Below are positions 14,313-59,415 of a DNA stretch of 64,000 bases, piece by piece. The translations under genes were made by a program, and so were the position numbers. Within the stretch, counting starts at the first letter, position 1; the number at the start of each line of letters is the position of its first letter. Below the pieces are notes generated by a model. It saw only the letters and a list, made by a program, of their open reading frames with translations, was not told where the DNA came from and ran no database searches. The DNA lies in NCBI GenBank assembly GCA_006503535.1, contig QYRS01000007.1, positions 372,001 through 436,000 of the forward strand. Direction: 5' to 3'. The stretch comes from Arthrinium phaeospermum (lineage: Eukaryota > Ascomycota > Sordariomycetes > Amphisphaeriales > Apiosporaceae).

Positions 14313-16788
14313 CTAATAAGTGAGTTTGAACACCCATGCCCACTTGTCCGCCTCCCACATCTCCCGGGTGATGTTCAGTCGTATCCCATTCTCCCCCACG
14401 CTTTCAACTCCGATAGGCTGTCCCGCCATCTGACCGCCTACGATGGTAACATGGTCTCCGTCGACCCATGGTACTGGCGTGTTGCGAATCACCACAGAAC
14501 CATCGGTCGTCTGGTTCAGCACACTGATGTAGAAAGCGTCCATGGTCATGGTGAACCGCACATCCGTGTTCGTCGCCGCATCGACATACTGCGGCGTGAC
14601 ACCCAATAGGTCGTGTTGAAAATAGCCTCGCCATGGTCCTTGATCCACGCCCCCGCCTCCCGCAGATTTCTTCGTTCGACCGCGACAATCTCACCGGTCT
14701 CAGTGGGCCCAATATCCAGCAAAAAGTTGCCGTTCTTACTAACAATATCCAGCAGCGTTGTCACGATGGTACTCGCGTTCATGTAGGCCCCGTCGGGCGT
14801 CGCCCGGTTGTACCCGTACGAGAAGGGGTCCATGCCGGCGCTGCTCTCCCACTTGCGCCGCTGCGCCGTCGAGTAGGCCGCGTACTCGGGCGTGTCGAAG
14901 TCGCCCGGCAGGCCGCACCGCGCGTTCATCGACACCTGCCGCCCCGCCGCGGCGGCGTGGTTGTACCAGCGGGCGGCGAAGTCGGCGGTGGCGTTGGGGC
15001 CGCCGATGTCGCACCACATGATGTCGACCTCGTAGCGGGGGTCGGTGCCGAGCATGTCCATCTCGGGCACGATGAGGTCCGCGACGAAGTCCCCGACATC
15101 GCCCAGGGGCACGTAGCCCGCGTAGGACAGGCTGGCGTTGGTGAAGGGGTTCGTCGCGTTCCCGCCGGGCCAGCTGCCGAACCCGAGGGGCTCGTAGTCC
15201 GGGTGGAACCACTCGGGCAGGCTGAAGTAGACGGCACGGTGAAGGTGGGGCTGGCGCTCGCGGGCGGCCTCGAAGAGCTCCTCCAGAAGGTCGCGGTGCG
15301 GGGTCAAGGCGACCGACGTGCGCGCCGAGATGGTTTCGGGCACGTCGAAAATGGCGTAGCCGTCGTGGTGCTTGGACGTCTGGACAAAGTACCGCGCCCC
15401 GCTGTCAGCGAACAGGTCGACCCAGTCGTGTGGGGCGTACTTTTCGGCGGTGAAGTTGGCGATGAAGTCGTCGTAGACCACGTCGGGGCCGTAGGTGTCG
15501 AGGTGGTGCTGTCGGAAGTTGGCTTTGGTCGGGTCGCTCAGGTACCACCAGTACCACTCGGCATACGACTCCTGAGGGCCGACGTCGCCCCAGCCGGGGA
15601 CGGCGTACACGCCCCAGTGAATGAAGATGCCGAATTTGGCGTTGCTGAACCACTCGGGGGCTTCATGGCCGTACACGGAGTCGTACGTCGGCTCGTAGGA
15701 TGCGATGCCAAAAGTGGCTTCGATTGTATGGGTGGCGATTTGACTGCCTTCTTCGGTTTGCAGTACAATAGTCGCGAGGCCCTTTGATCCCTCCAAGACA
15801 CCCTCTTTGTTGACCACCCCGACCTCCGCAATGACCTGATCGCCGGGCCGCAACCGCTTGATGACAGCGGGACGCACTGTCATCAGACCTGGAGAGTCTA
15901 CCGAGACGGTGACCGTCTGGTTGGACAGGAGCCAGGTCAGACCGGCATTGTTGACGACGACTTCGACTATCTGGGTCTTGTTCGTATCCTCGAGCCACTT
16001 CTGGGTCGTACGCGCATACTGCACTTCAAGCTGCGGCAGCCCATCTTTCCCAGTAGGTTCCGCCGCGGCCGGCAAGAGGGAAATGGCAAAGACATGCAGC
16101 TTCGTTTCGATTTCACCCCCTCCGACGCCGCTTCCCGCCCCCTTGGGAATGGGCAACGTCAGCGACCTCAGCTCCTTTGTCGGGTCGAGCCAATTGGTCG
16201 TCTGGAAGACGTTGGACCTGTTGTAGTCGACCGACCGGTTGGCGAAATGGTAGGGCATGACCAGGTCGCCGCCAAAGGGGTACGGCCAGCTCCACCAGGA
16301 GGGCACCAGGACCTGGGCCGGCGTCATGCTGCCGTCGGCGTACGTCGCGTTGACGGAGCCCTCTGCGAGCCCGTCCTCGGCGGCGGCCAGCATGGAGACG
16401 CGCACGTAGCGGCCCTTGGGCACGTCGATGGTCTGGCCGTGGGAGATGACGTTGTCGTTGCCGGCTGGGCGGTACTGGGGGAAGGAGAAGTTGAAGCCGT
16501 CGTACAGCAGAGTCTCCTCTGGCAGGAACTCGGCCGGATAGCACCCTTCAATTACATTAGCACCTTCAAGCTCGTTACATTTGAGATGTTGGGTAGAGTC
16601 AACTTACGACCTGTGCCGTCAAAGTTGGCATCGCCTCCGACTTTGCCAAATCCGCGGTTGTTGAAAAGATGACCAATTTCAATTGGTATCGACCTTGAGA
16701 CCTCATTTGTGTTGTTCTTATGCTGGGGTTGTATGACGAGCTGAGCCGCCACGCTCGACAGAGTTGCTAAGAACACGGCACTCAACAT
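14313..16788 (-). CDS. GH29 alpha-L-fucosidase, secreted, with a one-base frame break
   Basis: Exon 1 (16788-16608) begins with a signal peptide (MLSAVFLATLSSVAA). Exon 2 (16545-14313) follows after a 62-base intron (GTAAGT...GAAG) in phase. An N-terminal region of about 250 residues precedes the GH29 catalytic barrel, recognised by FGIFIHWGVYAVPGW, TSKHHDGYAIFD, the nucleophile-strand motif VDIMWCDIGG and NGNFLLDIGPTETGE. A C-terminal beta domain ends VDGDHVTIVGG...WVFKLTY. The enzyme releases terminal fucose from glycans outside the cell. At about 14602-14604 the frame jumps by one base inside a GGG run: IFNTTYW is in one frame and GVTPQYVDAATN in the next. The protein downstream of the break is well conserved in character. 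As written it ends early, and the gene would encode about 804 residues without the break. It may be a sequencing error or a recent inactivation. Confidence 0.88.
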
Positions 16789-27095: not shown

Positions 27096-30000
27096 TCAAT
27101 CCAGCATCTCAGCGAGCTTCGACCCCCATCCCTTGACCTGGTACACATATGTCAGCATCAATAGCAAAGTCACGACAAGGAGATGTATTTACCATGGCGG
27201 GTGTCATCATGGAGAAGTGGTTCCCCTCCGCCCGGACGACACTGATTGGACTTCTCAAGAACTCGTCCCACCCCAGCGACCCGCCGCTATCAGGCCGGTC
27301 ATCCAGGAACCATTCGGCAATCTGCCTCTCATCGCCCGAGAAGACGGGCCTGGTAACGGCGCTCTGTTTATCGACACCCTCCCGCGCCGAGAAGAGCACA
27401 AATTGCGGTCGCCTCCGTCCTGGCAACCCGCTTGCCTTGTACGAAGCCAGCTGCTGCCGCGCCAGGGTGAAGTGCTGGCCTTTGAGCAGCCTGCCGTGGT
27501 TCTTCTCTCGGACCTCGTCCTCGTTGGGAACCCCAAGGTGCGAGCTGATGGACTCGAGATAGTCTACTAGGGTGTCTGGCATGGAGGGGGCGAGGGTGGG
27601 ACAGGCCGTATCGATCAGGAAGAGCTTTTTCACCTGACAGTGGTCCTCCAGCAGCAGCCGCGTCATCTCGTAGGCCACCAAACCGCCGATCGAGTAGCCG
27701 CCAATGAGGTAGGGGCCTTCGGGCTGCCGGCGCTGGAGCTCCGCCACGTACAAGGGCGCCAGCTGCTCTATCGTGGGCGCCAGGTCTGGGTCTGCGGGCT
27801 GGCTGTTTCTGGTATGGAAGGGGCTGTTGAGGGCAAAGACAGACATGTCCTCGACGCGGGCGAGCATGGGCGCGAGGGGGCCAAAGACGGCGCCGGACCC
27901 GAACCCGTCAGGGACCAAGAAGAGATTGCAAATTTTGGAGGCAGAGCTCGTCCCCACGCCCGATGAAGCAGCATGGACGTGGCCTTGGCCGGGCGCTGAC
28001 GCTCGGTCTCATACTCGGGCTCGGCAGCCGTCATGGCGCATATGACACGCACGCTGCGCGACTCCCTCGTCGCGCCCTCGGACCAGTCGACATGCGAGAA
28101 GCCAGCGGCATGCATAGCCCGCTCCCAAGAAAACGGACTCTGCAGCGCGTACTCCCGCCCGTCGTCGAAGAGCCACCACCCGTCCAGGAGGCCCCAGACC
28201 AAATCATACCAAGCCAACCGCTGCGTCAACTCGACCAGCGCCAGGGCCCCGTCGCGCGGCCGCACCATCTGCCGGATATGCGTCAGGCTGCGCCGCAGGT
28301 CGCGCGTCGCGTGCACGCAGTTGCTCGAGACGACGAGGTGGTAGCGCCCCAACAGGTCCGCGGGCGGCGGCGCCTCGACGTCGAGCTTGCGGAAGTCCAT
28401 GCCAGCGACCCCCTTGAAATCGGGCGTCTTCTTGGCGCGCGCCACGAGCGAGACGGAGACGTCGGTGAAGGTGTAGGCGAAGGGCAGGCCCGTCGCCTGC
28501 AGGAGCGGGACGAGGTGGCGCGTGGTGCCGCCGGTGCCGGCGCCGATCTCGAGGATGCGGAAGGACTCGTCGGGACCCGATGACGAGGAGGCCGCGTGGG
28601 CGCGGGTCGCGGCTATGACGAAGTCGCAGAGGACTTGGGTGGCGGCCCGGAGGTCGGGTCCGTTGGCGTAGAAGTCCTCGAGCAGGGTTCGGCACTTGTC
28701 GCTGCCGAATAGTAGGGCGACGGGGTCGGCTTGGCCTGTGAGGCACTCGGCCAGATGCGGGCCCAGCAGGTCGGGCAGGCCGTGCGTGGAGGCGAACTGG
28801 GGAAAGGCGTAGATAAGCTCCGTGCTCAGCTCTTTCGCCGTTTTACCACTGGCAACAACAGCGCTGCTGGTAGGGCCGCGCACCCAGCCGTCGGGCCTGG
28901 CTTCGGCTATGCCGGCTTCTTCGAGGATGTCCCAGAGGCGGGCTATTTCTCTGCCATACTTGGGAAGTGTCTCTCGTAGAACAGGTAGTTTCTCCCCCTC
29001 TCCGATATTCAGGATGGGGCAACCCAGCTTCTCGAATCCTTCCACAATGAAGCCCGTAACTACTTCCAGTTGTTGCGGGTACACATGGTCCCAGTAGCCA
29101 GTGAGTTTGGTGTCTTCTGCGTGGGCGTCGAAACCGCCCCGAACCTGTTGGAATGCTGCGCGGATCGACACCGCGTTTTCTTTCCCGTCATCTATCAGGG
29201 TCTCAATACCAGGAGGTGGGGTTCCAGGTTGACTACTCGTCGCTGGAGTTGAATAGCTCTGGGGCGTAGCCGGCGAAACACCCAGCGACTCGGCGATCAA
29301 TTGACAAACTGCCGCCACGTCGGTCGCCGCGGATAACTCGGACGATGTGATATCGACGTTCAAAGCTTCATTGAGGCGACCGATGATCTCTCCCGAGATG
29401 AGCGAGTCGACGCCAAGGTCCTCGAGTTTCGAGTCTAGTTGGATAGCCTCCATATCCACATCCAGGGAGTCGCTGAGGCTCTTGAACACTGCATCCTGCC
29501 ACATTGTAGCATTGCCGTTGGTGATCAGTGGGGCCTTTTCTTGCTCATCGTACTCGATCTGGTTCTCCTGGGCGACTGTGGACGAGACCAGGGCACACAA
29601 GGATGCGACATCGCTAGTCAAGGAAAGTTTGTCGCTCGAGATGTCGATGCCAAACTTGCTCGAGATGTTGCCGAGTATCTCGGGACTGACCAGCGAATCT
29701 GCGCCGAGCTCTTCCAGAGTGGCATCTTCTTTAACTTCCTCAATTGGCACATCGAGTGATTTGGCCAGGATTTCTTTCACGCCCCTCGTTACCAAATCGG
29801 GTTTGTCTTGGGAGACACTGTCGGTGTTGTTTGCTAGACTAGGGGTAGACCGGGCAGTTTGGCTCAGACCATTGGGACTTTGTTTGGCGGGCGTGGCAGA
29901 TGCCGCTGTCAATGGATTGGTTTGCTGCAGCCCGTCAAGCCCCTTCTCAGGATTGGCCCCAGCCAGCACCTTCGCCAGCGAAAGACGGGGTACCCTGGAG

Positions 30001-33000
30001 AATTGCAGGCCCTTGGCCGCCCAAATAGTCTTTTTAGTCGTCTTATCGATCGCAAACACGTCAAGCGAGACTTTGTTGCTCGTCTCCCCAACGACCTTGG
30101 CATAGGCCCTGAACCCGCCATGGCCTGGCAACTGCCGATCCAGGGGCCCGACCGAGCCCATTCCCGTACAGATGTAGGACATGCTGCCATTTTCCTCGCC
30201 CCCCTCGGCCGCGCCGCGTAGCGAGTGCACGAACGCGCCGGGAACCTGCAGGAAATTGTCCATGATAAACGGGTCCGCGAGGCCGTCGTTGGGCGACCGG
30301 GCGGCGGGGTCGAGGTCCTGCGCCGGCATCGAGATGTCGCCCGCCCCCTCGGCGCCCTTGCCGGCCAGGTGCTTGAGGCCTCTGTAAGGGGGAGCGTACT
30401 TGGCCATGGATGAGAATACCTTGTACACCATGGCACCACGCAGGGCTTCCGTGTCGATGTCCTTCTCCAGCAATTGGGTGACGCGGGCCCATCGATCTCC
30501 ATCGTTGATGTGGTCACCGTTGAGAATGCTGTCGCGGCCTCCCAAGATTACGGTTCCGGTAGCGTGGGATGTTGGCTTTTCGCCTTTCTTGGTGGAGGAT
30601 AACTCAAACCCCCATGCGGTCTCTGATCTCTTTGTAACAATAAGGCTGATGGACCGTTGCATGTCCAGGCCCAATGGCGATTTGATTGCCAGGCTATCAA
30701 CCGTCATCTCTGAGTCTGTGGTGCGCGCCAGAGAGGCGACAGCGAGTGTCGCCAGCTCCAGGTACATGGCAGCCGGGCAGATGGGCGACCCCACCACCGC
30801 GTGTCCCTGAACCAGCTCCTGGTAGCGCCGGCTGCGCGTATCGACCTTGAACACGAACGTTCCGCTACCTTCTGGGGTCTGAGACGCATCCTGGGCAATG
30901 TAGGGGAATTCGCTCGTGTGTCTCAGACAGTGGGGGCACTGTGAGGGTGCTATCGAGGGTCCCTCGGCGGCGGTCTTGGCCGTGTCGCCCTCTAAGCAAG
31001 GGGCGTAGTCCAGCCAGTGTCTGTTCTGTTCGAACTGATAGTGCGGCAGCCGCACGGTCGCGTAGTCTGCGCGCTGGCGCTTGTGGAAGGGCCATGGGGC
31101 TGCCCGGACATGGGGCTTCCACAGCCCGCTCTTCCACAGCAAGCGAGAGTAGCGTTCCAAGCGACCGGAGGTCCTTGCCGTCAATGGCTACAAAGGTGTG
31201 CAGCGCAGGAGGAGTCTGCGGTATCGCGTTGCGAGCCATGGCGACGATGGGCCCTCCAAGTCCTGCTTCCAGGAATGTACACGGGCCGAGACGGTCAACG
31301 ATTCGCGCGATGGCTTGCGTGAAGTAGACGGGTCCGCGGGTGTTGCTGGCTATTACGTTCGAGCCAGGCCGGGTCCACGTGCCCGCGTGACAGGATTCGA
31401 AGGGCAATTTGGGATCCTGATACAACGGTTGAAAGATCAAACCAGTGACTGGAACTCTGTTCAGTACGTGGAACGGGATGGTGGCCGACAACTTGGCGCT
31501 ATCTTCGATGATCGGGTCCGCCATGGCGGAATGATACGCGTGCATTCCTTTCAGCACCTTAAAGCGCATCACCTCGCCGTTCGACTTCCTGCCCTTCAAA
31601 TGCGATTCGAGCAGCTCTATATCAGGAGTGGGACCGGCGACAACGTAGTTGTTGGGTCCGTTATAGCAGGCGACGCTCAACTTGGTCTCGGGCTGTTGCT
31701 TGAAAAACGGATCCAGATGCACCGTCGGCGACATGTCTTTCTTGACCAGATCGGCTTCGATGGCGATCATGGAACCAGTGTCGTCACCCCACAGCCTCTG
31801 AATAATGGACGCGCGGCCTATTCTCTGTCAGTACCCTACGTTCATGTACTCACGCGTTGATTTTGTCGTTCGGAAACAAGAGTCATCTACTCACTGCAAG
31901 GGGGTACGGTCAGTCTTTTGACGCAGAGAAGAACATGGTGGTATAACACTTACCCAGTGACAAGTCGCATTCCCGCATCAAGCGTCATGACGCCCGACAC
32001 TGTCGCCGCCGCCCACTCTCCAAAAGAATGGCCGCAGACGGCCTGGGGCTGCAGGCCCGAGTCGAGCCATGACATGCCGCTCGAATACTGGATGGCGAAC
32101 ATGGCAGCGTGACGAAGGCTGAGATCGCTGTCGCCCCTGAGTCCGTCGAGCACCGCCGGGAAGAGGCTGGGCAGCCCGAGCGACTGGATCGTCTCGTCGC
32201 ACTGGCGCAGATGGTGCTGGAATAGCATGGAGCTGTCGTAGAGAGACCTGGCGGACGGGACTGTGTCGCCGTTCTGGCCGCTGAATAACAGCACGACGGG
32301 TTGGGGGCGTTGGGCGACCAATGTGAACTTCTCCGGGCTGGAGAGCTGCGACTTCAGCTCGGTCACTGCGTTGATAACATAGACTTTATTAGAGGCAAAG
32401 ATATTTTGGAACTACCTGGGTAGATCGTTGGACTGTACTTACCAGACTTTGCCGTCGTGCAGAACAATTGTTGGTGCTGGCGGCTTCGCTTGGTTGCCAG
32501 GGCGAAGGCCAAATCGGATAATGTGGGAGTGATGGAGGGATCCTTAATTTGGTCCTTGAGCTTCTCACAGTAGGAAGCCAGGCTCGCGGTTGAAGCCGCA
32601 GAGATAATGATGGGCAAGGGTGTATCAGAGGCTGCCAGTGCTGCCGACTCTCTCTTCGTCCCCGTCGTTGACGACGATGGCGGCGGCGCAACAACCGCGG
32701 CCGCATTATTCCCAGAAGCCCCGTAGCTGTTCACCAGAGCCAACCGCCTGCTATCGTCCCAATCCCTCACCGACGTCGCGATAGCCAGCCGGTCCGAATC
32801 GAGAGGCCGAATGTTTGGGTTCAGCGTCTCAAACTGGGCCTGGGGTGTGATCTTTCCGTATCGCATCATCAGCAAGACCTTGATCAAGGAGACGATGCCC
32901 GAAGCGCCCTCGGAATGCCCGACATTCGCCTTGACCGCGCCAACGTGCAGCGTCGAAGTCCTGTCTTTGCCCCCCAGGACTTGCCGTATGCCGGCCATCT

Positions 33001-35439
33001 CGACGGGGTCCCCGGCAGGGGTTCCAGTGCCGTGGGCCTCGACATACGAGACCTCGTGGGGATGGACCCGCGCGCGGGCCAGGACATCTCGATACAAAGC
33101 CGCCTGGCTCTCCAGCACCGGGTTCGTGATGCTAGTGCAGTTAATATTCTGATTATTCCCCGTCGCGAGCAGCACGCCCTGCACCTCATCCCCGTCCCGC
33201 AGCGCCGCGCGCAGCGGTTTCAACACGACCACACCAACAGCCTCGCCGCGACAATAGCCGTCGGCGCGCGCGTCGAAGGTCTTGCAGGGCCCCGCGGCGC
33301 TGAGGAAGCCGCCGACGCGCAGGGCGTCGAACAGGGCCGTGTTGGCGACGAGGTTGGCGCCGCCGGCGACGGCGCGCGTGCACTCGCCCAGCTGCAGGGC
33401 GCGGCAGGCCTGGTGCACGGCCACCATGGCCGACGAGCAGGCCGTGTCGATAGTATGGGACGGGCCCGTCCAGCCGAAGTGGTGGCTCAGCCGGCCCGCG
33501 GCGAAGGAGCGGAGCATGCCGCCGCCCGTGTAGGGCGAGGCTGGGTGGCTGGCTAGGTTTAGCGGCCAGTCGGGGCGTTCATGCCGATGAAGCAGCCCGT
33601 CGTCGTCGTCGTGCAGCGTCCCTTGCTATCACCATGTGTCTCGGGCCCTTGCTGTGTCTGGTCGCCGCCAAGCCAGCCGGCCGATTCGAGCGCGTGGTAG
33701 GTGGTTTGCAGCAACAGGCGCTGGTGCGGGTCGAGGGCTGCCGCCTCGCGTCTCGTCTTCTTGAAGAACTGGTGGTCGAACGACTCGACATGCGGCAGAA
33801 GGTTGGCCCACATCTCGGGCTTCCCTGCCGCGTCGGGGAACCGCTCTAGGGGCAGTTTACGGGCCATGCTCTTGCCCTCGAGGAGAATTCGCCATAGGCT
33901 TTCCGGGGTGTCTCCGGCTGCCGTCTGGCAAGCCATGCCCACCACTGCTACGGCATGCTCGGGATAGTCGGTAATGCCCCGCGTATCTTGCGTCCCATTA
34001 CACGCCGCCAGCTTTCGGGGCGTGATTTCTTTGAGCACGGGATGCCGTAGCGGCTCATCGGCACTCAGCTCCAAAGCCCGCACCACGACCGCATGGTCGG
34101 TGTCGAGCCCCGCGATGCGGTCCCACGCCGAAAACGCCTCTTCCTGGCTGATATCCGCGATCCCCCTGGCCTGCATGCCCCTGGAAATCATCCGGGTCGC
34201 CGACTTGCTCTGCGCCATCAGGCCCACCCCGCGCCAGCTCGACCACAGGATGGAAGTGCTGTTGTCTCCCCGCCGCCGGCGGTGCGCCGCCAGACCCTCG
34301 AGGAAAGCGTTGGCGGGGGCGTACGTGAGCTGGCCCTCGAACCCGACGAGCTGCCCGACCGAGGACGTGAGCACGAAGAAGTCGAGGGTGCCGGGCGGGA
34401 ACAGGGCGTCGAGGACCAGGCCGCCTGTGACCTTGGGCGCGAGCACCTCGGCCATGTCTGATGGGGTGCAGCGCTCGAGGGTGTGGTGGCCTGCGATGCC
34501 CGCGGCGTGCACTACGCCCTTGATTGGTGGCAAGCTCAACCGGTCAACAGCTTTTCTCAGTGTTGGACCGGCATCGGGCTTGCCCACGTCGATTGCGAGT
34601 ACGTGAACCCTCACGCCCAAGGCCTCGAGTGCAGAGATACGGGAGAGCAGTTTCTCAACACTGGCACCGTCTCTAGAGCCGTCTTGAGTGGCTGGGATGC
34701 CTTGGCGGGAGACGAGGATCAAGTTGCGAGCGCCGCGCTCGCCCATCCAGCTCGCTATCTCGAGGCCCATGCCCCGGGTCCCGCCGGTGACTAGGTATGT
34801 CTTGCCGGGATCCAGCTGCAGCTGCGACTCCGTGCCGACGTTGGGTTCGTTTGGGAACGGCTGAAGTGAAGCCGCCTGTGCGGTGCCATTATGAACCCGA
34901 ACAACGTCAAAGTCCTGTGCGTACTTGATGGCCGACGTTGGAAAGGAGAAATCGTCCACCTCGAACAGGCCACCGAAGATGTCCGGGATTTCCATCTTCA
35001 ATACACGCGCTAGTCCTGAGAGCGGGGCATACGCAAGACCACCGGCGTTGGAGTCCTGTAGAGTCAGGGAGTAAAGACCGGCAATTGGGGCCTTGCCATG
35101 CTGTCGGTGACGGTGTAACAGCCGGGCAGCCTCAATAAGCCTCATGCAGGACTTGTGGACAGCTTCGTAAACGCCATCTTTCGTGCTGGGAGTGTTGGGG
35201 ATGTGTACAACGATGGAACTTGGCGACAAATGAGCGTCTATCTCTGTGACTTGCTTGACAACTGCAATCGCATAGCCCTCGTCGACAATCTGGGCCTTGT
35301 AGGTCGAGACGAGCTCGCTGTTGCAGTCCTCGTCATCCTCTGGTTCCAGGAGCACAACTTTGTCAAAGTTCAGTGGGCTCTCGGACAGTGTGACTGGTGT
35401 CCAGTTGAGACGATGGACAAGGCAGCTGCTGGTATCCAT
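27096..35439 (-). CDS. Polyketide synthase KR-KS-AT-PT-ACP-ACP-MT-TE with N-terminal ketoreductase
   Basis: About 2,720 residues. The start is set at the Met at 35439 (MDTSSCLVHRLNWTP); an earlier in-frame Met lies at 35547. Domains in order: KR, with NADPH motif GGTRGMG (residues 219-225) and Ser359/360, Tyr373, Asn377 in SSVGQLVGF...YAPAN, matching the 6-methylsalicylate-synthase type. KS, from about residue 494, with DTACSS (about 33440), EAHGTGTP and GHSEG. AT, with GHSFGEW (about 32020). PT, with GHAVVGSPICPA and DPFIMDNFLQVPG. ACP1 GADSL (about 29700) and ACP2 GVDSL (about 29410). C-methyltransferase LEIGAGTGG (about 28540). Thioesterase GGYSIGG (about 27690). The last exon is 27137-27096; another clear intron is 32442-32366. 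No SAT domain is present. One-base frame breaks occur near 33574 (GGGG run), 31170 and 27960, and the junction 31954/31817 is one base out of phase. The expected product is a C-methylated aromatic polyketide. What the leading KR does is unknown. Confidence 0.88.
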
Positions 35440-35612
35440 GGCTACTTGTTGATTGTCCCCAGTTGGGTCAGAAGTTCTCTTCGTATATGGGTGGCTCTCT
35501 GACCTTGCCAAAGTGAGTTTCTGATAGAGGGGACAGGGAACGGTCAAGAATATGGGATCTGCCTAGTATGGAGTTGTTTATTGTCTATATACACTCATCT
35601 ACAGTTGTTGGC

Positions 35613-36811: not shown

Positions 36812-38912
36812 TCACCGATCACGCTTCTTCAAGGTGCAGTGGAGTCCCTGCTGTCTAAAAAAGAACCGGTTCTCCATCTTGAGACCGTTGGGATTGTGGA
36901 TGTGTATCTGGCATTATCAGCTCTTAGACCTATCGGGAGCAAGTATCAGGCTGGACTTACGTCGTAGTTCATAATCAAATAGGGGACAAGTTTCTTCACC
37001 TCGAATATGCCGATATGCTTGCCGAGACAGACGCGTCTCCCGGCTCCAAACTAAATCCCCGAGACCGTCAGTGACCAGGATGAGCTGCACGCCAGAAGGC
37101 AAAACATAACAAAACTCACTGTGAGCAATCCCTGCTCCATTTTCTTTCTGCGCTGTTCGTCGCCGACGAGCCAACGCTCCGGGTCCCACTCCTCGACGTT
37201 GTCGCCGAAAGTCGCCTTGTGCCTGTTCACTACGTAGGGGTTGCCACCGACCAAGGTGCCCGGGGGCAAGTACGTGCCCAGCACCTCGACGCCACCGGCG
37301 GGCACCACTCGCTCGAGCGGGAGAGCGAACGGCGGGTGGATCCGGGCCGCCTCGTTGACGCAGGCGTCCAGATAGGGCAGGTCGCGCACCTCGCTCCATT
37401 TGGGGAATGGGCGCGAGAGGTTGGCGTCGACGAGCTCCTGTTGCAGTTTCTGGAGCGTGTCGGGGTGGGATAGTAGGAAGTCTGCCGCGTGAGGGTTCAA
37501 ATATGGCTGTCAATGGGGAGTACAAGGGCAGAGTACAAGGGCAGGGCCTGCTTGAAGGGAGGGAGACTCACTCCAGTTGGGTTAGTCGTGATGTTTGAAA
37601 ATGGGAAATAGGGATAGAAGCTTACCACATGACAGTTTTCATCAATGATCCAACTGAATCGGAGCCGGCAATGACATTTGAGAATGTCCAGGCAGTAGAG
37701 GCCCTACAAAACAATTTTGATGTTAACTGCCTACATGTGGTGCCTTGATGGATATCGCTGGAAATGGGGTTCTCACCAGGGCGGGATATCCGAGTTCGCG
37801 TTCTGAATCTCCAGAAATCGGGAGAGAAAGTCTCTATCCCCTGTCTTCTTGATGGTCTCGGTCTCGGCATCATCAGGACAGGCGAGACGTTCGCGGATGG
37901 CTTTTCCCACAAACCCGAGAATCGTCATCCCGGGGGTCCGCCGGATAGTGTGGATCAGCCTGTTCTTGTATAGCAGCTTGTCAAGCCAGGTTATTTGTGT
38001 CATCTGGAAACAGACCGATGTCAGCGTATGGTGGAACAGCTCCGAACCATTTTCACCGCCATGTCACACAATCCATTCAGGGGTATCAAGCAGATTGGGG
38101 AAGAACACAAACAGGTGCTGCCGTCTTGAAGAATTGGAAGATGGCATTCAGCATGCCCCCCACGTCCCGGCCTTGGTCAAGGAAACCGTAGCGCTTGGAA
38201 AACGACATGGTGCCCATGACGTCAAAGGCGAAATACTGCATCCAGTCGCCCAGGTCAAACGTATCTCCGCTAGCCAAGAACCGCCGGTCGAGCTGAGTCG
38301 ATAGGCAGGAGAGGACCTCTTCCACCAGGCCCTCGAATGACGTGGCGTTGGAAAGAGCAAAGAGGGGCGCGATGGGGCTCTTGAGCCGTTTATGGATCTG
38401 CTCGTCCTGCGTGTTGAACACGGCCAGCATGGAGCCGCGTTCGCGCGTGTAGGGTCGCAGCGTGGCGTAAAAGTCACTCTACCAAAGGAAGAGGGATTGG
38501 TCAATGAAACAGGGCGTCTTCCGAACAAGATGGTCGGCGAGGCAGTACTTACCTTGGGAAAACCAGGCCGGAAGGGGTAGATGGTGGGGATGGCGTCCGG
38601 ATTGCTGACAGACACCATACGCGGCCCCAGGCGCACGATATCGCCGTATCTCGCATGTGCAGCCCGGTGGTACTGATGCGCGCGGCCGGTCATGACCCAC
38701 CAGCTCCTGGGAAGGTTTGTGAAACTGGCCAAGAAGGGGCCGGGGACGTGCCTCAACGCCGACCACGCCCGGAACGCCCGCAGGAACGCCACCGTCAGCA
38801 CGAGGCCTGCAGCCAATAGTATCAGCTGAACGCCGTGCATGTGGCTTATGCGGTCCCCGATTAACTGGGACACCGAGATGGCGGCAGAGTGGATTTGGTG
38901 ATTTTGTGCCAT
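36812..38912 (-). CDS. Cytochrome P450 (first of two in cluster)
   Basis: Multi-exon gene on the synthase strand: 38912-38553, 38478-38113, 38003-37777, 37703-37626, an exon from about 37506 to 37130, then exons with the haem loop and the 3' end to the TGA at 36812. An N-terminal anchor ([18 protein letters not shown]) is followed by the proline hinge HVPGP, the I-helix AGSDSV (usually AGxDTT), the K-helix NEAARIHPP, the PERW region and the haem-binding [10 protein letters not shown] (about 37035). It would sit in the endoplasmic reticulum membrane and oxidise the polyketide. The join between 37626 and about 37506 cannot be made in frame with standard sites, so a one-base error or an unseen small exon is likely there. 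The intron contains a tandem duplication of GAGTACAAGGGCA. Confidence 0.82.
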
Positions 38913-40774: not shown

Positions 40775-42687
40775 ATGGATTCATTCTCGAGCTTTGCATC
40801 CCTTGATGTGTTTCTGGGACACATCACTCTTGCCCGTCTGGCGGGTTGTTGGGGGTTGTTCTGGCTCCTTCGCGCCTTGTACAATGTCTCGCCTCTGCAT
40901 CCTCTCTCCCATATCCCTGGGCCGAAGCTCGCAGCAGCAACGTTCCTCTACGAGGCCTGGTTCGACCTGGTCCGTGGAGGCCGATATACTCATGAGATCA
41001 GAAGGCTGCATGCTGTCGATGGTATGATGATGTCGTCTCGAATCCATGGGCTTGATTCTCACCACGTCACAAAACAGGGCCAGTCGTGCGGATCAACCCA
41101 GAGGAACTACACTTCAACGACATTGGGTTCAGCGACGAGATCTATGCGGCCGGCGGCCGCAGGCGGGACAAGCAGACGCACTTTCTTAACTTCATGGCAG
41201 GACCCATTACTCAGTCCATGTTCGCGACGGTCGACCATGACCACCACCGCCTCCGACGCAGCGCGGTCAACAAGTTTTTCTCCCGGGCGCAGATCTTGAA
41301 GCTCGAGACCAATATCAAGGAGATGGTGGATCAGCTGTGCGAGAAGATGATCCGTCTAGGTATGTCCCATCTCTCCTGCTGCCCAATCCGTGCAGGCCTG
41401 ACTTGCTGATCTTGAAAAGGCGGCGGCTCGAAGAGACCCTTTGATGTGACTACGGCCTACAGTTGCTTCACCGCCGATGTCATCTCCGGCTACTGCTTCG
41501 ACGAGCCATTCGGCTTCGTGCGACAGGTAAGCAGCAACCCCCAGAATTAAGTAGCCAGCCAACTCTCTAACAGCTCAATACCAGCCAAACTGGGAGCCCA
41601 ACTTCCGAGAACCCCTGAACGCCATGCTCGGCCTCATCTACGTCTTCCGCTTCTTCCCGCTCCTCAAAGTCCTCGTCGACATCCTCCCCCTCTTCGCCAA
41701 GTGGGTCGGAGGCGACGTCGGCCGCATGCTGAAAGAGTCCAACGAGGCGATGCCCGCCCGGGTCCGCAAGGCCACCGAGGACGTCGCCGCCGGCAAGGTC
41801 CACGACAACGCCAGCATCTTTGCCGCCATCATCGGGTCTTCGCTGCCCGGCGTGGAGAAAACGGACCGCAGGCTCGGCGGCGAGGGCTTCTCTATGATTT
41901 CGGCCGGCACGGAAACTACTGCGGTGGGTTTCTTGCTCTACGTTTCTTCCCTCCAGATAAGCACATTGAAAAGCTGATGATCGTCGTGGTGGGGTGTTAA
42001 TGGCAGTGGACACTAACGGTCGCCACCTTCCATCTCCTCAACCAGCCGGCGACGCTGGAGCGGCTGACCGAGGAGCTCCGAGAGTCCGACGCGCTCAACA
42101 GGTCGTGGTTCGCGCTGGAGAAGCTGCCGTACTTGGGGGCCGTCGTCAACGAGGCCCTACGGCTCTCGTACGGCGTCACGGCACGGACGCCGCGGATCGC
42201 GCCCTACGAGACACTGTCGTACCGCGGCCAGTTCCGCGGCCGCTCGGTGAGCTACGCCATCCCGGCCGGCACGCCCATGGGCATGTCCAGCGGTATCAAC
42301 CACCACAACGAGGACGTCTACCCCGACTCCTACGCCTTCCGGCCCGAGCGGTGGCTCGAGGCGAGTGCCGACCAGCGCCGCCAGATGGAGAATAGCCTGA
42401 CGTCGTTCGGAAAGGGTAGTAGGGTTTGCTTGGGCATGCAGTGAGCACTCCTTCTCTTTCTGTTTTTCACAAAATTGGCTTCGTGGCGCTGATCAATACT
42501 TTCGTCGCACAGGTTGGCGTACGCCAATATGTATCTGGCGCTGGCGGCCTTGACCTTGCGCGTCTTCCCGTCGATGAAACTTTTCGAGACGGACGTGACG
42601 GATGTCGCGTGGGACTGTGACTATTTCGTTCCGGTTACTCGCAAGGGGAGCAAGGGGGTCAGAGTTCTGATTGATAGGCGTACGTAG
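40775..42687 (+). CDS. Cytochrome P450 (second of two in cluster)
   Basis: Six exons, all in phase: 40775-41021, 41078-41359, 41420-41526, 41585-41923, 42007-42440 and 42513-42687, giving 527 residues with no defects. The N-terminus has a membrane anchor ([17 protein letters not shown]) and hinge HIPGPKLAA. The I-helix motif AGTETTA, K-helix [16 protein letters not shown] and the haem loop [11 protein letters not shown] are intact. The segment [19 protein letters not shown] is typical of the large fungal group that includes trichodiene oxygenase-like P450s. It is transcribed away from the first P450, with the TIR element between them. Probably an ER-bound tailoring oxygenase of the cluster; the reaction is unknown. 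Confidence 0.93.
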
Positions 42688-44718
42688 ACAGCTAGGTTCC
42701 CACGACATATGGCTTAGAGCATTTGGGCAAACCTTCCCACCTCTCGGTGCGATTGAAAAAGTAGCAATAGGACAGTAGTTTGACTCGATACTACTTGATC
42801 GTTCGTAACAGTTTACCACGACACACGGTCCGAATAAAATGTATAACATGATCAGAACTCTTGTTCAGTCTTGCTTCTATTTGATCATGTAAACAATGCT
42901 AAGTCCACCGGCAATCAATGTAGGTCGACAAGTTAATCACCATTGTGTACCATATGGCGGCTCCCACGAACAAGCGAAGCTGGGAATACACTGCCCGTTC
43001 GGCCAGTTGGGCCTCTACGATGGTTTGGGCTGCCAGGGGGATGACCGCCAGGTTTGAACGCCCTTGAGGCCCGCGGAACCAAGCAAGACCTCGCTTCGGC
43101 CGGCAACGGAGGCAAAGCTATCGAATCTGATGGAGTCCAGGTTATGAAGGACATTCTCCAATGAAGAGGAGAATAGTTTGGTAACCATGGTGGTATGGTA
43201 TTGTTTTGGTAGTCACTCAGCCTTGATCTGGTATCAGAAATGCAAGAAACAGCAACTGTGTCCGGCCGCTGCGGTCGGGCCCGGCCTCGGCTTTTTCGCC
43301 GGCTGCCACAACCCCTGGCAGATTCCATTCACCCCCACGCTGGCTGGTTTGGTCTCAAATGCCGTGGAAGGTACAGGTACATGCAAACAAATGCGATGCC
43401 CAATTCGCTTACACGCACATTCGTCAGCATGATGTATATCTGGGGTAGCACAAGAGAAACTGAAGCATGCACCTTTCTTCCGGCACTTCCCGAGTTTGAC
43501 AAGACCCAAATGAGCATGGCTGATGGCAGCTTATCTGGTCACGCATTGCCTAATCTGGGGGTACCTACAGGTGTCAGTCATGTTGTGTAACATGTAAGCT
43601 CCCATGTACCCATATACGGAATGAGGGGCTAAGTTGCGAAGGTGGCCTGGTAGTATGTCCAGAGTCTAAGTAAGTACCTCGTAAGTAGCAACTATCTATC
43701 TACAAACCATTCACATGACTCCCGACTTGTATCTTATCGCAACAACCATGAGTAGAGAGTTCCTCATTCGGCATGGCCGTGGACCACAGTTGCTCGGACC
43801 CCCAGGCTCAGTGATGGTAATAGCGAATTTTCAGGGTCTTTTGAACTCCCCGCCAAGACATAGCAGATTCGTTCCTGGGTCAGTTAACTCACTTTGTACG
43901 AGCCCGTGTGAATTGTTGATATTGCATGTATTCCAGGCAGTTGAGCAATTCGGCAACATGGTGGTTGAGAATGTTTCTGGGATCACATAGTTGGCAGCTG
44001 TCCTGATGTTGATTCTTTCCTTCATCGTCTTCCGCGTCTACTTTCATCATCTCTATCGAGTTATTGGCTCACTTTAAGGGTGCGCGTCGCCCCTTTGCGT
44101 CTACAACATCGGCTACTTGGGCATCGAGGCTCGCCTACAACGCCAAGGTACTGGGTCACGCCCAATCCGGTGTCCGTCTCCGACGTCGCCGCCCTGTACA
44201 ACATCCAGGTAGCCAACGGCGGGTTTCTCAAAGACATTTGTTGCTCGAACTTGGATATGGGCCCTGTAGAAACCATATACTCGACCTGCTGGACCTCTGT
44301 GCCCGTCTCTCCCTCGATCTGATGTCGAGGTATCTTCTAGACGAGGCGCACGGTGGCTCGCTCCCGGCAAGGACTCGGGACTACGGTCCACGGCGGTCCA
44401 GCATGGAGACGATTTTGCTAATCTTCAGTGGAGACCTGTATCAAGTGGTCCAAGACGCATGAAGAACGTATCGAGCTGCTGGAGTGGTTTGACGCGGAAA
44501 TAAAGGGGCACAGAATAGGGGTAGAGTAGGCCCGTCTGGTGTAAACAATATGTCTAAAAAAGAAGAATACAAAAAGAAAATCTGTCTAAGTGTCTTGGAC
44601 TAATAAGAAATCTATCCTTCTTCCACTCGATATATCCTCTTCACTCTATTGCTTTCGCACTGGAAACATATGTAGTGGCCAATGATCAAAATTCCATAAT
44701 AAGAAATAAACAGGAGCT
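42688..44718. other. Two-kilobase gap with weak coding traces
   Basis: No gene that I can defend. A plus-strand stretch near 44140-44300 (YWVTPNPVSVSDVAALYNIQ, LDMGPVETIYSTCW) and a minus-strand cysteine-rich frame at 43234-43509 read somewhat like protein. Neither has a start, splice structure or family that I recognise. Confidence 0.4.
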
Positions 44719-46791
44719 TTAGTTTCCGTTCTTGATGCTATCGGCAATCTTCTCGCCCAGCATGTCTGTGTTCACCGTCAGCTTGTTTCACCGATATTTC
44801 CCTTAGGGCTGTGTCAAAGGACGCGAGACTTACAGACTGTAGCTTGCGGAAGCCCAGGAGGCAGGAACGGGAAGGCGGAGGCATCGACAACGCGTACTAC
44901 ATGCGGACAAAATGAGTATGCATCTTGCATCACCCAGGGGAAGAGAAGACTCACGGTTCTTGACCCCGTACACGCGCGCGTGGTTATCCACGACCGCGTA
45001 CGCGTCGTTAGACTTGCCCATGCGACAAGTCGAGCTGACGTGGAACATGGTGTTAAAGCTCTCCTGAATATGGCGATGAATCTCGTCGTCCGTGCGGACC
45101 GCCGAGCCCGGGTAGAACTCGGACCCAATGGTCAGGTTAGCCATGGAGGGCGCCTCGAAGATATTCCGGAGGCGCTTGAAGCCGGCCACGACGAGATCAA
45201 TATCACGCTGCGTCGTCATCCAGTTGGGGTTGATGAGCGGCCGGTCCCGCATGCGGCCCGACGCAATGCTGACGTTGCCGACCGACGACGGCGCCACCAG
45301 CGTCGCCAGCAACGTGGCGTACATGGCCCCGTCGCGCGGGACCGCGGGGGTGCTCCAGAAGTCGCCCACGAGGTTCGGCAGGGTGAAGTACTGGATCTCG
45401 GGCCAGTCGTCGGGCAGCCCCGCGAGCTCGGCGCGCGTCTCGGGCGCGAACGCGGCGCGCATCTCCTCGGGAACCTTCTCGTAGGCGGCGAAGTCGCCGC
45501 CGGGGCTCGCCAGCGGGCCCGTCCCGTTGGTGTTAAAAGCGGCTTCGGCCCGCTGCTGGGCGTCGCCGTACGAAAGCGCCGTGGCCGTCTCGACGTTGAC
45601 GCGGTACCCGATGCCGAAGTAGACGTGGTCGTTCATGTTGCGGCCCACGCCCGGCCGGTCGGCGACTACGGTGATTTTGTGGCGGCGCAGGATCTCGGCG
45701 GGGCCCACCCCGGAGACCTGCAGCAGCTGTGGCGACAGGAAGGTGCCGCCTGATACAATCACCTCGCGTTTAGCCGCCAGGGTGTAAGTCCGGTTGCCAG
45801 TGCTGACTTGCACGCCGCTCGCGGTCTTGTTCTTGTCAAAGAGGATGCGCTCAGCGAGTGTTAGGTCGAAGACTGCCAGGTTCGGACGGGACTTGACGGG
45901 CGTCAAGAAGGCCGTCTCGGCCGACGCTCGGTGTCCGTTGGTCGGGTTGATGGCCGATGTCAGCCAGGAAGAACCATTCAGGCGGCCGTCGATGAAGGGT
46001 TTGGAGCCCGGGATGCCGACGGATTCCATGGCGGCCCCGATCCAGGTGCTAAAGGTCTGGGGCCATGACGAGTACGAAACGTCCAGGGGGCCCCCTTTCG
46101 CGGCGGTCCCAGGGGGAGGCTGCGAAGTCGAGGCATTTGCAAGACGGGTCTCCTCGTTGGGCGGCGTGAGGTTCATGCTTTTGCGGTAGTAGAACGACGA
46201 AGAATCGTATGCGTACGATTTATCTCCCACCGTGTCTGCCCACCGCTGGAGGGCACCTGCTGTGGTCTGTGTATAGCCCATGTAGTTCAGGTTGGTGCTG
46301 CCTCCAAGCTGGTGTGTTCTCGTTAGTCCAAGAAAGTCTTTATAGATTTGAAACTGACTGGATTCGGCTTACCGATTTCCCACGAGCGTAGTGTATTCTC
46401 TGCCCATTGGCTCCCTATCGATCTGTTAGCCCTCAGATAACACACAGTTGCTGTGAAGTGGAATCCCTACTGCTTGCGGAGTGGTGACGAAGCCCCACTC
46501 GTCCAACGGGTTCGTGTCATTGGGAGCCTTGAGGTTGTAAAAATAGTCATATGCCGGAACCTGGCTTTGGTTGCCTGTCACTGAAGTCGACCATGTGCCG
46601 GCCTCGATGACCGCGACAGACACCGATGGGTCCTCAGACAGTCGGTTTGCCACGGTCAAACCACCCGGTCCGGCTCCGACGATAACGTAGTCGAAGGAAA
46701 GGCTGCTGTTGGTGTGTTGAGGAGCGGCGCTGGTGAGGCGCAGTCCTGCGATGACAGCCAACGCTGCGAGGGGTTCTGATGTCGTCTTCAT
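44719..46791 (-). CDS. GMC-family FAD oxidoreductase
   Basis: Five exons, all in phase: 46791-46471, 46414-46373, 46308-44955, 44896-44834 and 44765-44719, giving 608 residues. There is a signal-peptide-like N-terminus ([16 protein letters not shown]). The FAD-binding motif GAGPGG is at residues 39-44 and the second GMC signature is [36 protein letters not shown] and [13 protein letters not shown] follow. The C-terminal substrate domain carries [11 protein letters not shown] and the ending [28 protein letters not shown]. Fungal relatives include glucose oxidase-like and aryl-alcohol oxidase-like enzymes and versicolorin B synthase, which acts in a polyketide pathway. Its position suggests oxidation or ring closure of the cluster product, possibly in the secretory route. 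A TATA-like box lies 90 bases upstream. Confidence 0.92.
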
Positions 46792-46879
46792 TGTACACAC
46801 TAATAGAGCTGGTTTGATTTATATGACCTCGTCAAAGTTGGACACAGACTTTCATTCATCTTGGCGAACAGAATGGGCC

Positions 46880-46887
46880 TATTTATA
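46880..46887 (-). promoter_or_regulatory. TATA-like box of the GMC oxidoreductase
   Basis: TATAAATA on the minus strand about 90 bases upstream of the ATG at 46791. Confidence 0.35.
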
Positions 46888-47926
46888 CACAACAATACCT
46901 CCGTAAAACAACCATCAACCCTGGGTCGCAAAGAAAGCCATCAACACGACACGAATTCCACCTCCAAGACGCTGAGTCGCTTTCCGGACCCCCCAGCTTG
47001 CCAAAGCTGAGAATGAAGAGGATCTAGGTCAAGTGATGCAAACCATTGGTCTCAGCAACCCGATAACGAGTGTTCTGAAGGATTGCTGACCATGTGTAGG
47101 ATCGCTGAGTCGGGTGGCTTCCCTTGTTGGGTATTTAGCTGCTGCCCTGGCTCGGTGGCGCCTAGCCCAGGCGGACAAGAGTATATTTGGAATCCTTCAG
47201 CTTCTTTCTCAGCAAGGGCTCTCTGTTGGGGGCGAGCACGTTCGGGGCTACCGATGACCCCTGAATGTGTTGAAAGACCAGTGACTGTATCTATTTCTGG
47301 TCCTGATTCAATGTTGCCAAACGTCTCCATATCTTCATCCGATCAAGACTGATAGTCAATAGGGCTGTGTATTAACAGGCCACTGTTAACCACGTGAATT
47401 CCAGACTCCTTCAGGGGTAAAGGACATGGACACGGTGGTGGTAGCTTGCCTTGCCGTCCGTACTACTAGGAAAGTTGATGCAGTGCTAGTGGGCCAATCA
47501 TATTGCATTGAATGGTATTACTGACTGGGGCCCAGACGGATGTCATCCAGTCCCCTCCATCTAAGCTTTACACTCAGAATGGGATAAGGGCCGCGCGGAT
47601 GGTTCGGTGAAGAAGAACAACATCAAAATATATCTTCGCAGGTACCCATGTACGTAGAGGTACCTCGCCAGGTACCTCCTATGTAATACGTCGGTACATG
47701 TTCGATACTTGGTGGGAAACGGTGCGTCGTGTAAGCAAGCATATCTTCGGGCTTACCTTCTTATCTTTGGCCGAAAAGCGCGAGCAACTCCGGCATGTTA
47801 CACGAAATCGGTACCTTGGCGCAACAGGATGGTGCAAGCTTGATCAACTACTTATTGCGCGGGCTCTCTGCCTGGCACGGGTCAACGTAATGTATCATCT
47901 CACGAAAGCCCTCGCCCCCTGCAAAC
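46888..47926. other. Divergent intergenic region between GMC and MBL genes
   Basis: Likely bidirectional promoter region. Around 47640-47699 it has several close copies of GGTACC-centred words. No gene seen; the in-frame extension of the hydrolase into this region is not protein-like. Confidence 0.45.
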
Positions 47927-49086
47927 ATGGCCGACTCCCCGTCTTCGCGACCACCCTTCCAGTTCCCGGCTTCCCCGGCCACTGTCGACGTCAGGGTAAT
48001 CGATACGTACGTCCCCCCAAACAGGGTAGCAGTGCCATCTTAGACAGCCATGCCCCCGTGACCTCGCAAACGTATCTGACAGTTTCTACTACTCACAGCG
48101 GCACACGCCTCTACCTCAAGCCCGGCGTCTTCTGGGAGCCCGCCTTACCCGGCTTCGAGGGCCCCGACGCCCCGGTCTACACCTTCCTCATCTCACACGG
48201 CGGGCGGCACGTGCTGTTCGACCTGGGCGTCCGCACGGACTGGGAGAACCTGCCGCCCCGCATCGTCGAGGTGATCCAGGCCACGACGCGCGTGACGGGG
48301 CGCGGCCGCGACGTCGCGTCCGTGCTCGACGACGACGCAGCCCAGGACCGAGGCGGCGGGCAGGAGCCCGCCGTGCGCAGCTCCGACATCGAGGCCGTTA
48401 TCTGGTCGCACAGCCACTTCGACCACGTCGGGGACCCGTCGCGCTTCCCGCCCTCCACGAGCCTTGTCGTCGGGCCCGGCATCTCCGCGGCCGCTTGGCC
48501 CGGATACCCGTCGAACCCCAACGGCACTGTCCTCGACAGCGATGCCGCCGGTCGTGACGTGCGCGAGATCAGCTTCGCCGGCGGGGGCGCCGAGGACGAC
48601 CACCTACGGATCGGTCGTTTTGATGCGTTCGACTACTTTGGCGACGGCTCCTTCTATCTGCTCGACGCCCCCGGCCACGCCCCGGGCCACATGTGCGGCC
48701 TGGCCCGCACGACGGCCGAGCCGCCCACCTTCGTCTTCGTGGGGGCCGATGCGTGTCACCACGCGGGGGTGATCCGGCCCTCGGCCCATCTGCCGCTGCC
48801 GCCGTCCGAGGCGCGGCGGGTGGCGTGGAAGGTCGACCCTTGTGCGCCCTTCTTCGAGGTTGCCCGGAACAGCCTGTTCCCAGACTACGCGGCGGCGACG
48901 GAGACGGTGGCTAAGATCCAGGAGCTGGACGCCTGCGACAATGTGTTTGTTGTCCTGTCTCATGATGACTCGCTAGGCGGTCGCCTGCCATTGTTTCCGG
49001 AGCGGGTGAACGACTGGCACGAATCCGGGTTGCGGGAGGGGACGAGGTGGCTGTTTTGTAAGGAATTCGAGAGTGTCAAGGTTTGA
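47927..49086 (+). CDS. Metallo-beta-lactamase-fold hydrolase (lactonase-like)
   Basis: Two exons, 47927-48006 and 48099-49086, join in phase (GATAC|GTACGT...CTCACAG|C) to give 355 residues. This start (MADSPSSRPPFQF) is preferred over the open frame beginning at 47698, whose first 130 codons lack protein character. The metal-binding HxHxDH is in SHSHFDHVGD (about residues 131-136), followed by GHAPGHM, GADACHH and VLSHDDS, giving the full ligand set. The layout, with ISHGGRHVLFDLGVRTDW before the motif, is that of the AHL-lactonase-like branch. It differs from the short MBL thioesterases that release aromatic polyketides in TE-less synthases. Since the synthase here has its own TE, a lactone-opening or resistance role is more likely than chain release. 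Cytosolic. Confidence 0.88.
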
Positions 49087-59141: not shown

Positions 59142-59415
59142 GAAGTTCTCGGGCAGGGGTGGCCAACCACATAGGCGATTGGCCTCCTAAGTGCCCCTGG
59201 TAATTGTATTAAGGTGCCCACATGCACATGCAGGCAGTAATTCACTGGGATTGGTAGTTGCGGCACGGAATAATGTTCTGCCAAAGCTTGGCTGTACGAG
59301 GAGGATGACGGCGGGGAAGAGCCGTTGTTATACACTGATATTGTTGATTTAATTGTTGTCGCGGCAGCAGCATACCCCCAGGAAATAAATATCAGATGCT
59401 TCATGAACCAAGTCA

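Follow-up and report, generated by a model that had tools for sequence, protein, structure and literature searches.

The stretch analysed here, hereafter the window, comprises 64,000 nucleotides of Arthrinium phaeospermum (assembly GCA_006503535.1, contig QYRS01000007.1, here C7:372001-436000, in a genome of 48.4 Mb and 19 contigs) and carries on its minus strand a polyketide synthase (PKS) gene in which a ketoreductase (KR) domain stands at the N-terminus, directly ahead of the KS domain. The gene runs from an ATG at 35437-35439, which is also the start of the orthologue from Apiospora marii (P0002), to a TGA at 27098-27096, and scans of the separate frames with Pfam, NCBIfam and sequence motifs gave the domain order KR-KS-AT-PT-ACP-ACP-C-MeT-TE (C-MeT, or MT, being a C-methyltransferase; Table 1). 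A preliminary description, made from the letters of the sequence, had claimed that KR and KS share one uninterrupted frame and that the KR retains its NADPH motif and a Ser/Tyr/Asn triad. Both statements hold, as a single stop-free frame (33559-35562) contains the whole KR (Pfam KR, 183.6 bits) and then leads into the KS (84.3 bits for the part in this frame), with no intron and no break at the junction, and the catalytic Lys, Ser, Tyr and Asn together with the NADPH residues are invariant in 26/26 aligned rows (the window plus 25 of the 48 relatives introduced below). In the AlphaFold model of residues 1-487 the KR adopts a double-Rossmann fold (pLDDT 89), and solved PKS KRs match it over its length, to about residue 478. 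The match of the KS model begins near residue 496, so that the linker is indeed short but measures about 20 residues, not the roughly 30 first estimated. The PT-ACP-ACP-MT-TE part was likewise recovered as expected for a non-reducing PKS (NR-PKS), with PT His and Asp motifs, two ACPs, the C-MeT and the TE all present.

The place normally taken by a SAT domain is occupied by the KR. The absence of a SAT upstream, also claimed initially, was borne out by the Pfam scan, which gave 17 SAT matches genome-wide and none within the window; on this contig the closest one lies at C7:874726. Between the ATG and the stop codon of the adjacent cytochrome P450 gene (36812-36814), a gene that limits the space available for a SAT exon, none of the three minus-strand frames of the 1.37 kb interval has a stop-free stretch longer than 136 codons, and an upstream SAT exon was rejected on these two grounds. 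At E-values up to 1 the orthologue P0002 also gave no SAT match, and no SAT family was seen in the precomputed domain annotation of the 48 best relatives.

Table 1. Features of the KR-first PKS gene and of the gene upstream of it (positions are those of the window; domain order follows the direction of transcription after the whole-gene row).
Feature	Position	Strand	Basis
Cytochrome P450 gene, upstream (upper end approximate)	36812..38900	-	Pfam p450 pieces 37054-37509 and 38089-38478 in two frames; stop codon
Whole PKS gene, with three frame breaks as assembled	27096..35439	-	tblastn of P0002 residues 1-2690 spanning 35439-27099; ATG and TGA at the ends
KR, structural and catalytic subdomains, residues 1-478	34006..35439	-	
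NADPH motif TGGTRGMG	34765..34788	-	motif scan; T and three motif glycines invariant in 26/26 rows
KR catalytic stretch, Ser (SSVGQL) to Tyr/Asn (YAPAN)	34309..34365	-	motifs, alignment
KS	32831..33951	-	Pfam ketoacyl-synt and C-terminal domain across two frames; motifs
Frame break 1 (approximate), inside KS, not intron-like	33565..33580	-	P0002, P0003 and P0005 contiguous there; window shifts frame
KS motifs	active-site Cys 33431-33448; His 33020-33034 and 32906-32926	-	
Probable intron between KS and AT	32366..32442	-	GT..AG by eye; frame change and alignment gap
AT (GHSFGE 32016-32033; MHAYHS 31528-31545)	31160..32288	-	Pfam, tblastn, motifs
AT intron(s), splice sites approximate	near 31.82-31.95 kb	-	by eye
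Probable 51-nt intron in AT	31417-31467	-	by eye
Frame break 2 (approximate), AT end	31139..31175	-	tblastn of relatives
PT (His motif 30789-30806; Asp motif 30246-30260)	29961..30872	-	TIGR04532, 105.7 bits; motifs
ACP 1 (GADSL)	29586..29780	-	Pfam PP-binding, two stretches in the same frame; motif
ACP 2 (GVDSL)	29283..29501	-	Pfam PF23297; motif
C-methyltransferase	27999..29156	-	Pfam HTH_51 and methyltransferase models; match to citrinin PKS chain 5mpt, 260.8 bits
Frame break 3 (approximate), between MT and TE	27948..27963	-	tblastn of relatives
TE (GYSIGG 27682-27699; His motif 27208-27225)	27202..27924	-	Pfam Thioesterase, 90.9 bits; motifs

Relatives were collected by a protein search with the KR-KS part of the gene (residues 1-626 of the unaltered frame, P0001), which returned 2,749 proteins, of which 120 were listed. 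The best 48 of these (P0002-P0049, 48-88% identity) all have the KR match ahead of the KS match, and among the matches listed beneath them are 6-MSAS-like fungal and multimodular bacterial proteins. Closest in the list is P0002 from A. marii (Sordariomycetes, Amphisphaeriales), with 88% identity over the KR-KS part, and the other members come from Apiospora, Colletotrichum, Trichoderma, Conoideocrella, Diaporthe, Cytospora, Botrytis, Stromatinia, Rhexocercosporidium, Aspergillus and Penicillium, as well as from Xylariales, a range that we take to span three ascomycete classes. Counting a domain as present when at least 60% of its P0002 counterpart was covered (the KR of P0045 reaches 69%), KR, KS, AT and PT were found in all 48 proteins, TE in 47 and MT in 38. 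The ten proteins without an MT match (P0003, P0004, P0008, P0036, P0039 and P0044-P0048) comprise four from Apiospora, two from A. brasiliensis, the pair A. stella-maris and A. venezuelensis, and the pair A. melleus and A. affinis; as these are predicted proteins, a missing MT may sometimes reflect a gap in the gene model, yet the absence recurs in several groups. Since the query contained a KR, the search favoured KR-bearing proteins, and a control search was run with the PT-to-TE part of P0002. It listed 45 of the 48 again, whereas only six other listed proteins (P0222-P0227) reached at least 41% identity and the rest stayed at or below 38%. These six have no KR match, but their gene models begin inside the KS or AT and therefore say nothing on a KR-less sister of the family. 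Two metagenomic proteins (P0228 and P0229, 30-48% identical by domain) showed neither KR nor SAT at E-values up to 1, but their N-termini are short and they weigh neither way. In a search with the KS part, multimodular bacterial PKSs crowded the list, and the nearest NR-PKS could not be read from it. By sequence comparison, the gene is one member of an existing and wide family rather than a unique case.

The ancestry of this family was examined with separate KS and KR trees, built from 25 of the 48 family proteins and the first 24 by number of 64 6-MSAS-like proteins (so assigned by a length of 1650-1900 aa among P0051-P0120, only some being named as such), together with 27 of 29 KS loci (L039 and L047 were too short) and six of the seven KR loci tried from the same genome (L007 proved to be a KS match; further KR matches of the genome were left out). 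For both trees the program warned of long branches among the own-genome rows. Among the 77 rows of the KS tree, the window and the family group with eight own-genome KSs in a 34-row clade (support 100/99), and seven of these eight have a SAT match no more than about 2 kb away. The 24 6-MSAS-like KSs form a separate clade, and the KR-first family is itself monophyletic (100/100). The KR tree has 56 rows, and here the family, again a single clade (99/100), joins the 6-MSAS-like KRs in a group of 50 rows (100/100), with the six own-genome KRs of other PKSs falling outside. A KS of the SAT-type non-reducing clade combined with a KR from among 6-MSAS-like KRs indicates a chimera of single origin, which is best explained by a single fusion of a 6-MSAS-type KR to a SAT-type NR-PKS, the latter having lost its SAT. 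The preliminary description had proposed a domain transplant and a KR of 6-MSAS type, and the differing affiliations of the two domains bear out both. Whether the KR of the family is sister to the 6-MSAS-like group or nested in it depends on a node at which that group is one clade in 26% of the bootstrap trees. The KRs of the 6-MSAS-like synthases P0051, P0053 and P0054, which share 42-45% identity with the KR of P0005, take a basal position without firm order in this tree, and their lineage may have donated the KR of the family.

Among known systems, the canonical NR-PKS has an N-terminal SAT and no reductive domain, while the PKS described here lacks the SAT and possesses a KR. The citrinin-PKS-like, C-MeT-bearing NR-PKSs of the SAT type share the KS-AT-PT-ACP-MT layout and an MT resembling that of 5mpt, but have a SAT at the N-terminus and lack a KR; four KS homologues of the same genome are 46-48% identical, three of them adjoining a SAT match. 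6-MSAS, which works without a SAT, shares the KR lineage, but its relatives P0051-P0055 and P0073 have the KS at the start and the KR late (about residues 1190-1660 of 1750), and their KSs form a clade of their own, apart from that of the KR-first family. In terrein biosynthesis, as outlined in a review, a ketoreductase also works with an NR-PKS, as we propose here, but TerA and TerB are two proteins, TerB being a dehydratase-ketoreductase, whereas here the KR is part of the PKS; this likeness is one of description.

The preliminary description knew of no synthase with this domain order, and in this it was mistaken, although its transplant and KR type stood. In Gilchrist et al. 2021 (Synthaser, PMC8582187), a KS network recovered a cluster of Aspergillus NR-PKSs with an N-terminal KR in place of the SAT, which the authors called very abnormal and uncharacterised and in need of future work, disbelieving an annotation error and suggesting reductive processing. 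The present gene agrees with that cluster in having a KR instead of a SAT, an otherwise textbook NR-PKS and a KS among those of non-reducing PKSs, a likeness that rests on the described architecture and not on the individual sequences of the figure; it differs in that the network covered Aspergillus and MIBiG records, while our copy comes from a Sordariomycete and has frame breaks. Earlier still, Table 4 of PMC4073137 (2014) had given a 2648-aa KR-KS-AT-PP-TE protein from A. flavus AF70 and A. parasiticus BN9, likewise KR-first and ending in a TE, but with no MT marked and outside the identified clusters. Several relatives bear the name BcPKS20 and share the architecture, among them P0005 and P0027, whose KR-KS parts are 67% and 56% identical, respectively; Botrytis Bcpks20 itself, to which the Botrytis relative P0016 may correspond, stands in a published table within the block of unknown polyketides. 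The consulted parts of PMC11579551 and PMC12470490 do not mention a KR-first synthase, and a term search of the accessible text of PMC3158057, PMC10532697 and PMC9495618 gave no relevant passage. The architecture is already described as a class, to which the present gene adds a new member outside Aspergillus, along with evidence that the chimera arose once and is widely distributed.

Several further genes surround the PKS. In addition to the upstream P450, the window contains an aldo/keto reductase on the same strand as the PKS (25.0-26.4 kb), a second P450 (+) near 42 kb, within the region 42001-49083, a GMC oxidoreductase (-, 44.8-46.8 kb) and a metallo-beta-lactamase-fold protein (+, 47.6-49.1 kb, to 49083), and these could form a small cluster with the PKS. 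A second PKS with KS and KR pieces lies at C7:360589-366594 (+), outside the window, some 5-11 kb to its left and about 33 kb from the PKS gene. Elsewhere in the window are an alpha-L-fucosidase (14549-16603, 685 codons in one frame), a HET-domain protein (59407-61254, 616 codons in one frame) and a FAD-binding monooxygenase (61545-63425), the FAD domain of which is in one frame but for a single TAA at 62304-62306.

We propose, with a probability of roughly 0.65, that the 6-MSAS-type KR heading this NR-PKS in the place of the SAT works in cis on the ACP-bound chain of a self-priming synthase with a partly reduced product. The synthase would prime itself with acetyl through KS/AT, without a SAT, and extend the chain by KS/AT on the tandem ACPs. 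The N-terminal KR would then reduce at least one beta-keto carbonyl of the ACP-bound poly-beta-keto chain before PT-directed ring closure, a role as in 6-MSAS though exerted from another position, the MT would add one or more methyl groups, and the TE would release a partly reduced aromatic or lactone. Most likely, then, reduction takes place in cis, acetyl is loaded by the synthase itself and the product is a partly reduced, often C-methylated aromatic. In favour of this are the intron-free KR-KS frame, the KR-first order in 48/48 relatives, the complete KR model, the differing affiliations of KS and KR in the trees, the independent reports of the same architecture (PMC8582187 and PMC4073137) and the precedent of TerB as a KR partner of TerA in the review. 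That the KR is kept more strictly than the MT (48/48 vs. 38/48), with its catalytic residues, also argues for a working and central role. Weighing against the proposal are a PT score below the curated TIGR04532 cut-off of 168 bits, the expression of both Aspergillus genes in Table 4 of PMC4073137 at 0.0 reads per kilobase per million mapped reads, the frame breaks, owing to which the copy in this strain may make no working enzyme, and the literature itself, as many sequences share the order and within open-licence publications neither a characterised product nor an enzyme assay was found for any member.

The alternatives concern either what the KR does or whether the gene is sound. A KR that acts on the starter or on a released product, not on the growing ACP-bound chain, is unlikely, since in 48/48 relatives it lies in the same predicted polypeptide and its closest counterparts are those of 6-MSAS-like synthases. 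KRs of the latter kind act on the ACP-bound chain. This alternative draws on the position of the KR, which is the usual place of the starter-loading SAT, and on the review, which has TerB reducing 2,3-dehydro-6-hydroxymellein. Still harder to credit is that the continuity of KR and KS is a false gene fusion or an assembly join: frame breaks do occur elsewhere in the gene, but the frame is continuous with no intron at the junction, the Synthaser authors also dismissed such an artefact (PMC8582187), and the same join in 48 relatives of many species led us to reject it.

The breaks themselves, which had escaped the preliminary description, are three frame changes outside introns, near 33.57, 31.15 and 27.95 kb in tblastn alignments of relatives, and as assembled the gene has no single open coding sequence after splicing. 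Introns were rejected as their cause, as the relatives are contiguous at these points and no fitting GT..AG was seen by eye; for the same reason the frame end at 33559 is a frame break and not an intron. Such damage, three breaks in about 8.3 kb, could mean that the strain carries a decaying pseudogene, with an enzyme that no longer works here although the architecture holds for the family, and 20 other PKS-like loci of this genome do have single open frames of at least 1,800 aa, a comparison biased by the choice of those loci for length. We consider this doubtful, as no sign of relaxed selection was seen: in a rate test with P0002 and 10 outgroups over six separately aligned segments, polarised changes numbered 39 in the window only and 39 in P0002 only (2,583 columns), with 12 and 13, respectively, at outgroup-invariant columns, and no stop occurred within the segments. 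As substitution rates equal those of an intact orthologue, the breaks are likely to be errors of the assembly or to mark a gene lost only very recently, and we lean towards these two readings; of them, assembly errors in an intact gene appear probable, even though the 20 long PKS frames elsewhere in the assembly are unbroken.

Reduction in cis by a leading KR remains our preferred reading, and it invites a broader one, for which we consider the evidence evenly balanced: KR-first synthases may constitute a distinct class of fungal iterative PKSs, self-priming, partially reducing and PT-cyclising, that arose once when a 6-MSAS-type KR took the place of a SAT and has since reached three ascomycete classes, the KR being indispensable and the MT optional, and their products may be found among selectively reduced aromatics so far not linked to a synthase. 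The family is common and conserved and no product was found for it in the open-licence literature, which makes it a concrete target for genome mining. Its architecture crosses the textbook divide that sets non-reducing fungal PKSs apart from partially reducing ones, and the role of the leading KR is directly testable. If the KR acts in cis, an aromatic synthase would have gained programmed reduction through a change of the N-terminal domain alone, and the family would provide a useful template for domain engineering.

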